From IMG/VR virus record IMGVR_UViG_3300009103_000001, positions 124,001-188,000 of that record: a stretch of 64,000 bases of DNA. One strand, given 5' to 3'. This DNA comes from a virus. Under the pieces are notes generated by a model, which was not told the DNA's origin, ran no database searches, and saw only the letters and a list, made by a program, of their open reading frames with translations. Both the position numbers and the translations under genes were made by a program. The first letter of the stretch is position 1, and each line of letters begins with the position of its first letter. This document shows, piece after piece, positions 28,196 through 30,879 of this stretch.

Positions 28196-28232
28196 TAAAA
28201 ATAAAAAAATACAATCTAAATAGATTTAGATT
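28196..28232 (-). terminator. Rho-independent terminator after the DHH gene
   Basis: An 8-bp stem AATCTAAA/TTTAGATT (28213-28220 and 28225-28232) with a 4-base loop (TCTA on the minus strand), followed on the minus strand by a T-rich run of about 17 bases. The stem overlaps the last codon region of the DHH gene (stop at 28231-28233). It separates the DHH transcript from the polymerase transcript. Confidence 0.6.
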
Positions 28233-29637
28233 ATTTCTTACTAGAGTCGATTTTTTCTTTTAGTTTCTTTACGAAGGTTTGAGCAAATGCTTTCAAAAAT
28301 CTATTACCATCTTTACCAAAATACATTAAACCAGATATATTAGTAATACATTTATGTCCGCCACTATTTGCCTGTAACATATCCCAACCAGTTACAGATA
28401 ATAATTTTAAAGCCTTTTTTTCATTATTACTTAATGAAGTATATGGTTTAGACATTACTGTTTTTAGTGCTTTTTGCCATCTTTCTATTGTATAATCTTT
28501 TGGGGCCTTTTTAGGCATACTATTTAAACCTATTATGCCGTCATCAGTATCTTCAAACATGGCAATCATATCAGTATAATTAAACCCAACAGATTCATCA
28601 TCAAAAGATTTATGTTTTTCAGCAAAATATTTTATAGTATCTACAGTTATTTTTTTACTTTTTAATCTAGATTTATACACATCTAAAACTTCTTGAGCTA
28701 TTTCACCCAAATTGACACCCTTTAATTCTCTATTAGCTTTGAACGGATTACAAGAAGATTGTAATAACCCTAAAGGCCAAGCAATAACTAAAAAATTAGC
28801 ATCAGGATAATTTTTAAAAGGAACATATCTATCGTAAGAACCGGGTTTAAATAGATTACCACCACCATATTGAGCTATAATACCGTAATCTTCTAGGTAA
28901 GTCACTTTATCACTGTCTTTTTGTGATTGGATATAATTAGCAATATTTTTTTTCATAATATCAGGAGAAACATACCCTTCTTCTTTAGCTAATCTAACTA
29001 TGTTTAAATAAATGTTTAATAGAGATGGTGTTGATTCTAAAACTAGTCTTTCTAAGAATCTTGGTTTATTTTTATAGGCTAATAAAAGTTTATTTGTTAC
29101 TAAGGCCATTATTTTTTTATTTTTAGATAATTCTTTTTCTTTATCTAATTCAAAAATATAAGTCATAACATCTTCTGGTTTAATACCCATTTTAACAAAA
29201 TCAGCAGAATCAACTGTTGATATCATTTTAATATCAAAATCTGGAAATATATCTGTTGGTGAAACTATTTGTGAAATAGTTTCTACGTTAGACCTAGATT
29301 GTCTAAAAGATTTTGAAGCTTGTTTTTCAGCACCAACTTGTTTATCGTGATGGTCGGTATGGACTACAAACATTGGTTTACCGTGAGCAAAGTCAACTAA
29401 CACAGGCATTATATCACCCTTAGCCGAGGGTTTTTTTATGGCAAACTCTTTATCACCATATTGTATAACTTCCGCATCAACAACTTTAATACCATTATTT
29501 TCTAAATAATTTTTCATAGCTAAAGCTGTTGTAACACCATCTAAATCTTGGTGAAAGTATATTTTAGCTTTATCATATCTATTAGATAAATTACGCATAT
29601 TACGTAAACCACTTTCACTTAATATACTACTTAACAT
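28231..29637 (-). CDS. DHH-family phosphoesterase (RecJ/NrnA-like)
   Basis: A 468-residue protein. Motif I is FHQDLDGVTTAL (D31 and D33 with this start), a DxDG metal site, and FVVHTDHHDKQ carries the DHH motif (about 95-97); a C-terminal GGHK segment resembles the DHHA1 substrate-binding motif. DHH enzymes are Mn-dependent nucleases or nano-RNA/cyclic-dinucleotide phosphodiesterases. Exact substrate is open. I start at the ATG at complement 29635-29637, which begins the leader MLSSILSE and leaves about 20 bases from the upstream AT motif; an ATG six codons upstream touches that motif. Confidence 0.75.
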   Translation of the reverse strand: MLSSILSESGLRNMRNLSNRYDKAKIYFHQDLDGVTTALAMKNYLENNGIKVVDAEVIQYGDKEFAIKKPSAKGDIMPVLVDFAHGKPMFVVHTDHHDKQVGAEKQASKSFRQSRSNVETISQIVSPTDIFPDFDIKMISTVDSADFVKMGIKPEDVMTYIFELDKEKELSKNKKIMALVTNKLLLAYKNKPRFLERLVLESTPSLLNIYLNIVRLAKEEGYVSPDIMKKNIANYIQSQKDSDKVTYLEDYGIIAQYGGGNLFKPGSYDRYVPFKNYPDANFLVIAWPLGLLQSSCNPFKANRELKGVNLGEIAQEVLDVYKSRLKSKKITVDTIKYFAEKHKSFDDESVGFNYTDMIAMFEDTDDGIIGLNSMPKKAPKDYTIERWQKALKTVMSKPYTSLSNNEKKALKLLSVTGWDMLQANSGGHKCITNISGLMYFGKDGNRFLKAFAQTFVKKLKEKIDSSKK

Positions 29638-29655
29638 GTTTTCTTTTAATATCAT

Positions 29656-29837
29656 TTATTATAAATATTTCATTATATAGTAAATAAAAAATTACGTTAA
29701 AAAAATAACTGTATACGTTGGGAAAGTATAGGTAACTTTTATATTATTTTAATACTATATATGTATAAAAAATTAACTATGGAAAATAATATAAATACAC
29801 TAATTGTTGAATTGATAATCGATATAAATAATAAATC
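29656..29837. promoter_or_regulatory. Divergent intergenic region with AT-rich promoter-like elements
   Basis: A 182-base gap between the DHH gene (minus) and the T9SS-domain gene (plus). The minus side has AATATTTATAATAA at 29657-29669, the shared AT motif. The plus side has TATAAATA at 29823-29830, identical to the T4 late-promoter core, 7 bases before the ATG, too close for a promoter of that gene without a leader. A 20-residue mini-frame (29779-29841) overlaps the start as ATGA. Nothing else is recognisable. Confidence 0.35.
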
Positions 29838-30257
29838 ATGAGAAAACTAAAATTAATTATATTACTATTATTAATACCATTTTTTAGTATTAAAACACAA
29901 AATGTAACAAAGTATAGAGTTGTTGCCGTAAGTTTTAATAAAAACGTTATTAGTGTCTCAAATACAATATCTGTAGTAAAACCATTGAGATTATACGCTC
30001 CAAATGTTTTTTCACCCGATGGTGATGGGATAAATGACCATTTTGAGGTTAAAGGTGTTGGTATAGAAGAGTTTGATTTAGAAATTTATAATAGATGGGG
30101 ACAATTAGTGTATAAATCTGACACACTTTTAGCTTGGAATGGTGAATATAGAAACAGACCAGTACCAATGGGTACTTATGTTTATCAAGTAAGGGCTAGA
30201 AATTATGATGGTTCTGATATAATAGTTAAAGATGGTACTGTAACATTAGTACGTTAA
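29838..30257 (+). CDS. Secreted small protein consisting of a type-B T9SS (gliding-motility) C-terminal sorting domain
   Basis: A 139-residue protein. A Sec signal peptide (MRKLKLIILLLLIPFFSIKTQ) leads into a short linker and then the full CHU_C/gliding-motility C-terminal domain: LYAPNVFSPDGDGINDHFEV (52-71), LEIYNRWGQLVYKSD (81-95), GTYVYQVRA (112-120) and terminal TVTLVR. In Bacteroidota this domain sits at the end of large cargo such as SprB and directs it through the type IX secretion system. Here it has no cargo. It would be exported to the periplasm and recognised by T9SS. A role in blocking T9SS, in lysis or in superinfection exclusion is inferred. The gene converges with DUF3310 by a 4-base overlap. 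Confidence 0.85.
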   Translation: MRKLKLIILLLLIPFFSIKTQNVTKYRVVAVSFNKNVISVSNTISVVKPLRLYAPNVFSPDGDGINDHFEVKGVGIEEFDLEIYNRWGQLVYKSDTLLAWNGEYRNRPVPMGTYVYQVRARNYDGSDIIVKDGTVTLVR

Positions 30258-30457
30258 CAATCTTCAGATAATTCAATTAATTTATCTAAATATTCTTTAG
30301 CTTTATATAAATCTTGTTTTCCATTTTTATGTTTCCATCTAGTAACATATTTAACAATATTACCCTCAAAAAAATCAAGATTATGTGAGTAGGCATAATC
30401 CCACATTTCAATACCAACATTATAATGATTTGGGTGTTTTACTTTTTCTTTTGACAT
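30254..30457 (-). CDS. DUF3310-family protein
   Basis: A 67-residue protein matching DUF3310: HPNHYNVGIEMWDY (8-21), GNIVKYVTRWKHKNGKQD (32-49) and KAKEYLDKL. The family is common in phage replication modules and often annotated as a nucleotide-kinase-like fragment; no catalytic activity is known to me. It faces the receiver-like gene divergently and converges with the T9SS-domain gene. Confidence 0.8.
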   Translation of the reverse strand: MSKEKVKHPNHYNVGIEMWDYAYSHNLDFFEGNIVKYVTRWKHKNGKQDLYKAKEYLDKLIELSEDC

Positions 30458-30525: not shown

Positions 30526-30879
30526 ATGAAAAAATTATTATGGTTAGACGATGTTAGGGACCCATTTGTGATGTCACAATGGTTATTACAATGGGCGCCA
30601 GAATATTACTACGAAAAGGATGAAGGAACCCATGAAGTTATTTGGGTTAAACATTATGATGGATTTGTAGATTGGATACAAGAAAATGGTTTACCAACTG
30701 AAATTGGATTTGACCATGACCTTGGTAGAACATTAAGTGGTATGGATTGTGCTAAGTGGTTGGTCGACTATTGTATCCACCATAATAAAGAAATACCACA
30801 ATTTTTCGTACAAAGTGCAAACCCTGTTGGTAAACAAAATATAATAACATTACTTAATAACGCTAAAAAACATATATAA
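30526..30879 (+). CDS. Receiver-like domain protein (cyclic-phosphate-processing type)
   Basis: A 117-residue single-domain protein resembling the cREC subgroup of response-regulator-like domains: LLWLDDVRDP (4-13) with paired aspartates, IGFDHDLG (65-72), TLSGMDCAKWLVDYC, and QSANPVGKQNI (104-114, roughly). Proteins of this group have been linked by genomic context to processing of cyclic phosphates at RNA ends and to RNA repair; as far as I know this is not biochemically proven for phage members. Standing alone it could act on RNA ends during host tRNA-cleavage defences. Preceded by a TAnnTTTG-like box. Confidence 0.65.
   Translation: MKKLLWLDDVRDPFVMSQWLLQWAPEYYYEKDEGTHEVIWVKHYDGFVDWIQENGLPTEIGFDHDLGRTLSGMDCAKWLVDYCIHHNKEIPQFFVQSANPVGKQNIITLLNNAKKHI

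Follow-up and report, generated by a model that had tools for sequence, protein, structure and literature searches.

The closest described counterparts of the protein analysed here are SprB of Flavobacterium johnsoniae and PG1035 of Porphyromonas gingivalis, which are type-B substrates of the T9SS. Type-B domains need cognate SprF/PorP shuttles, with some crosstalk in that certain shuttles serve several type-B domains (PMC12618676), and complexes of SprB with SprF and of PG1035 with PorP have been reported (PMC9143113). SprF and Fjoh_3951 are low in abundance, and stoichiometric use of the shuttles without recycling was inferred by the authors of that work (PMC12618676). Type-B domains were reported to be independent of PorV, and reporter tests in F. 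johnsoniae indicated that type-B secretion may take more than 200 residues (PMC10202324), with up to 235 in another study (PMC12618676). Among phage-selected isolates of Flavobacterium columnare, which are phage resistant, gld/spr (T9SS) mutations are common (PMC9233685), and this bears out the phage resistance of T9SS/gliding mutants of Flavobacterium stated in a preliminary description of the locus.

The window, a stretch of 64,000 nucleotides, belongs to a virus record of 210,157 bases from a large phage of Bacteroidota. It contains, exactly where the preliminary description placed it, a 139-aa open reading frame (ORF) with the following features:

29838..30257, plus strand: cargo-free type-B T9SS sorting-domain protein (ORF, 139 aa; PF13585; TIGR04131; AlphaFold2 model)
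29832..29834, plus strand: in-frame TAA stop, two codons 5′ of the ATG
29838..29897, plus strand: signal-peptide-like N-terminus, residues 1–20 (hydropathy score and inspection; predicted helix at residues 2–16)
29904..29978, plus strand: β-hairpin, residues 23–47 (YRVVA..SNTISV; predicted strands 23–30 and 40–47)
29997..30248, plus strand: CHU_C/TIGR04131 domain, residues 54–137 (profile matches and alignment)

Because of the upstream TAA and a stop-to-stop frame of only 140 aa, the protein has no cargo fused upstream, in agreement with the preliminary description, and a missed upstream start is ruled out by the same codon. A second viral contig matches the window across 8,151 bases, save for one mismatch, and encodes an identical 139-aa protein, so an assembly artefact is an unlikely source of the gene. 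A possible 20-codon upstream ORF (29779..29841, plus strand) was read from the sequence; its TGA overlaps the start of the sorting-domain gene (ATGA), which may reflect translational coupling or chance.

The C-terminal domain (CTD) is complete, as had been claimed. PF13585 (CHU_C) matches residues 54–122 with 67.8 bits (E = 9e-19; cut-off 27), and TIGR04131 matches residues 54–137 with 53 bits (E = 2.9e-14; cut-off 35), covering model positions 3–83 of 85. Both curated cut-offs for the type-B CTD are thus passed, and the score of the type-A T9SS signal model was under its cut-off. The conserved stretches visible in the alignment are PNVFSPDGDGIND, IYNRWG, WNG, GTYVYQV and GTVTLVR. The domain occupies the extreme C-terminus (residues 54–137 of 139), and the cargo that usually lies between signal peptide and CTD, although the domain is defined without it, is absent. 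This marks a variant of the type-B family and not exclusion from it. The N-terminus, MRKLK-LIILLLLIPFFSI-KTQ, follows the n-h-c pattern of signal peptides by hydropathy score and by eye, with cleavage probably before Q21 and no lipobox. The preliminary description of the protein as a signal peptide followed only by the CTD therefore holds for the signal-peptide-like layout and the complete domain, but 'only' is slightly too strong, as the hairpin precedes the domain. That the hairpin derives from a host Ig/Fn3-like module was considered and set aside, because the alignment to cellular CTD proteins lacked the strength to support this. An AlphaFold2 model computed with 27 phage sequences had a mean pLDDT of 89.1 and a pTM of 0.70. 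Its best match in the PDB was PorZ of the T9SS (5m11, E = 4e-4), and T9SS translocon/substrate entries 8glk_D and 8gl8_D ranked 21 and 32 in the match list, so the fold is confidently predicted to resemble T9SS sorting domains. Searches with the protein in PHROGs gave just a match to an unknown family at E = 0.053, and PADLOC gave no match at E ≤ 0.01. The analysis confirms that the product is a phage-located, cargo-free and functional-looking type-B sorting-domain protein.

The preliminary description had asked about cargo-free homologues in other phages, and these exist. Scans of viral contigs yielded orthologues of 133, 133, 142 and 148 aa that share the layout and the hairpin of the window protein, together with a partial family member in a 191-kb contig. 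In two further proteins of 187 and 189 aa (contigs L121 and L122), the same hairpin and domain follow a longer, different N-terminus with a likely membrane anchor. The Tyr, Arg, Ala, Ser, Ser and Asn residues of the hairpin are invariant in all six aligned members of the cargo-free phage family. In a tree built without the 148-aa orthologue, the window protein and the 133-, 133- and 142-aa orthologues form one clade (support 97/89), which groups with the L121/L122 pair at 89/76. The closest pair, L118–L119, has a dN of 0.12 and a dS of 0.62 (dN/dS about 0.19), while values for more distant orthologue pairs are near saturation. As read from these substitutions, the cargo-free family is under purifying selection and is a real gene family, not a stray fragment; a pseudogene is disfavoured by the dN/dS value and by recurrence in phages. 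Genomic neighbourhoods differ among the hairpin-family members. One of their genomes (G038, 246 kb) has DNA polymerase, DHH and helicase genes in common with the window phage, and no type-A or type-B CTD other than the cargo-free protein was found in it; another (G041) is more distant. In L118 (2567-3255) and L119 (1780-3255), the cargo-free CTD genes immediately follow either a lipoprotein-like gene, with a 4-base overlap, or thymidylate synthase, and several phages of this set have clusters of envelope-type genes close to thyA.

Bare type-B domains without the hairpin recur in other large phages as well: 123 aa in G021 and 121 aa in G032, with conserved gene order, 111 aa in G046 and G047, and 116 aa in the 642-kb phage LR756502. 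The G021/G032 and G046/G047 sets stand apart from the window family in the tree, albeit on long branches, and the cargo-free form probably arose at least twice. In G046 (L293 1429-1764 and 1949-3100), and likewise in G047, the genes for the 111-aa bare CTD and for a 383-aa exported protein that ends in IEHD are two genes apart. For comparison with hosts, type-B domains numbered 3–31 in each of 61 Flavobacterium genomes, and type-B matches were present in 92 of 101 Flavobacteriaceae genomes. No bare domain was found among about 150 best matches listed in each of these two surveys. Among the matches listed, the shortest frames away from a contig edge were 281 aa in one survey and 311 aa in the other, and frames under 281 aa appear, by their coordinates, to reach a contig edge. 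On this basis we reject the view that bare domains are a usual architecture in hosts, with rare, weaker-scoring host cases possible.

The CTD gene stands between two genes on the opposite strand:

28231..29655, minus strand: conserved phage gene, 474 aa, weak DHH/RecJ similarity (PF01368 E = 0.0011, below cut-off)
30254..30457, minus strand: DUF3310 gene, 67 aa (PF11753 E = 5.3e-12)

The DHH-like gene has 129 relatives in viral contigs, of which the best 80 were kept. In a relative with a 91%-identical DHH protein, DUF3310 directly precedes the DHH gene and the CTD gene is absent; where the relationship is more distant, the site is taken by DUF3310 or by other genes. Apart from the near-identical contig, none of the relatives fetched carries a CTD gene at this position, which points to a lone, single-gene and probably recent insertion; its absence from close relatives makes the gene dispensable. 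No close DNA relative of window positions 20000-44000 was present in the phage collection. Window positions 30526-30879, two genes from the CTD gene, encode a protein of 117 aa that contains a cyclic-phosphate processing receiver domain (PF20274 E = 1.5e-21). Sigma-70-like promoter sites occurred at chance level, the TANNTTTG motif was not above chance and had no copy upstream of the CTD gene, no enriched upstream motif was clearly shared with the CTD gene, and the Rfam search gave no match.

The window phage encodes other T9SS substrates, which do carry cargo: an exported protein of 832 aa that combines MAM domains with a type-A signal (C1:2967-5465 in G000; L007; PF18962 E = 2.9e-11), and a 193-aa type-B protein adjoining other exported proteins (C1:33516-34097). 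No SprF/PorP gene was detected in this phage by a search that returned 8–15 copies in each of three Flavobacterium genomes. A SprF/PorP shuttle-like protein is, in turn, encoded by G021, a 270-kb relative (PF11751 E = 3.8e-45; L331 7461-8432, minus strand, corresponding to G021:C1:147458-148432), and by L385 (4001-4996), with four viral contigs carrying such a protein in all. The G021 protein has cysteines close to its C-terminus.

We tentatively propose, with chances somewhat short of even, that the gene is a phage moron whose exported product occupies host SprF/PorP shuttles and competes with host adhesins. The protein would be Sec-exported to the periplasm of the infected cell, recognised by the host T9SS as a type-B substrate, and would end on one or a few host SprF/PorP-type shuttles. 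If these scarce and apparently non-recycled shuttles were filled by a domain without cargo, fewer host type-B adhesins would be displayed. Some phages may need such adhesins to adsorb, and the outcome could be limited superinfection or altered surface behaviour of the infected cell. We infer each of these steps, from export and shuttle binding to competition and phage benefit; competition is plausible because the shuttles are scarce and apparently used stoichiometrically (PMC12618676) and gld/spr mutants are phage resistant (PMC9233685). The partners named in the preliminary description fare less well. Since type-B domains reportedly work without PorV (PMC10202324), a SprF/PorP protein is a likelier partner than PorV, and the cargo-bearing T9SS substrates of the phage itself argue against a general shutdown of SprA and make selective competition likelier than a general block. 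Strong competition would also harm these substrates. Shuttle specificity counts against competition too, and with none detected in the phage, a host shuttle would have to serve. The mature protein is only about 119 aa, compared with the more than 200 residues in the type-B reporter tests, so it may fail to be exported or to hold a shuttle; the phage form would be either self-sufficient or able to engage the machinery without full export.

Another reading dispenses with competition. The product could be a minimal surface protein, exported by the T9SS and anchored by a shuttle, in which hairpin and domain act themselves, for instance as a mask over a receptor or in binding to a neighbour. The invariant hairpin residues would fit such a role, as would the anchored L121/L122 proteins, which keep hairpin and domain behind a different N-terminus, and type-B domains alone set the final cell location (PMC12618676). 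We nevertheless hold it to be unlikely, if worth serious consideration, as there is no further module or enzymatic motif and two other bare lineages (111 aa and 121–123 aa) have no hairpin. That the gene is a functionless, decaying leftover of a captured host adhesin would accord with its lone insertion and absence from close relatives, and cellular-type CTD genes are common in these phages. The ORF is, however, intact with all conserved stretches kept, and the same architecture occurs in several phages in a family under purifying selection, which makes decay very improbable.

A different role, in which the sorting domain docks with separately encoded, CTD-less exported phage proteins and takes them through the T9SS, draws on cassettes found elsewhere. 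In the window phage, outside the window (G000:C1:31604-34701; L008 11604-14701), exported proteins of 443, 187 and 197 aa without a CTD all end in I-x-H-N, and this trio adjoins the 193-aa protein, which has a PKD-type-B-CTD layout. Homologous phage cassettes have tails ending in I-x-H-D, I-x-H-Y or others (HD, HY, TN, KQ) beside a one-module CTD protein, and in two bacterial MAG contigs (L196 2106-6165; L265 3244-6477) exported proteins ending in INHN/INHW or ITHD/ISHD are followed by a CTD-bearing protein. The final tail residues often, not always, agree within one genome. The recurrence of these cassettes suggests sorting domains acting in trans, and the 111-aa bare CTD of G047 near the protein ending in IEHD fits the same pattern. 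However, the cassette of the window phage includes a CTD protein of its own and is some 120 kb distant from the 139-aa gene, and no tailed exported partner was found in G038 or G041, whose hairpin-family members are cargo-free or anchored. For the window gene we therefore do not favour a trans carrier, which we regard as improbable. A broader scheme would be split type-B export in large Bacteroidota phages, with trans carriers for short-tailed partners (I-x-H-N/D/Y and variants), SprF supplied by some phages, and bare domains such as the 139-aa protein serving as spare carriers or as competitors for host shuttles. We give this scheme a small chance only.

If the 139-aa protein does compete for SprF-type shuttles, as we favour, it would be a phage tool acting on a Bacteroidota-specific secretion/gliding system and a natural minimal reagent for what a type-B signal does alone. 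The bare phage proteins also bear on the shortest working type-B signal, with mature forms of roughly 90–120 residues against more than 200 in the F. johnsoniae reporters. The protein resembles SprB and PG1035 in its conserved type-B stretches and, probably, in having a signal peptide, and its predicted fold is like that of T9SS sorting domains, but it differs from them in having no cargo, in being phage-encoded and in that no SprF/PorP gene was found in its genome. Phage use of a host T9SS signal has likewise been described for Cryophage, whose T9SS cargo proteins, enzymes or a PA14 protein, bear type-A signals (PMC7468147), whereas the 139-aa protein is type B and without cargo. T9SS-domain proteins near head genes are also known in a BACON-containing gut phage cluster of Bacteroidota phages, in which one BACON protein has a T9SS domain fused to it (PMC6949934), while the domain described here stands alone. 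In BFVD, the predicted folds of two uncultured Caudovirales proteins annotated as 'gliding motility-associated C-terminal domain' (A0A6J5L8Z9, 199 aa; A0A6J5NJX2, 187 aa) match the 139-aa model; they are longer than the 139-aa protein and fall in the size range of one-module cassette proteins. The fold of A0A8D9CF28 (108 aa, 'putative lyase') also matches, and this protein may be another bare domain. No description of cargo-free type-B domains in phages was found in the open-licence literature. Phage-borne T9SS cargo is already known, and the cargo-free type-B form and the phage-encoded SprF of a relative appear to be undescribed; the recurrence of the former in large phages, together with the latter, suggests that phages take part in T9SS traffic more widely than the few cargo proteins on record would indicate.
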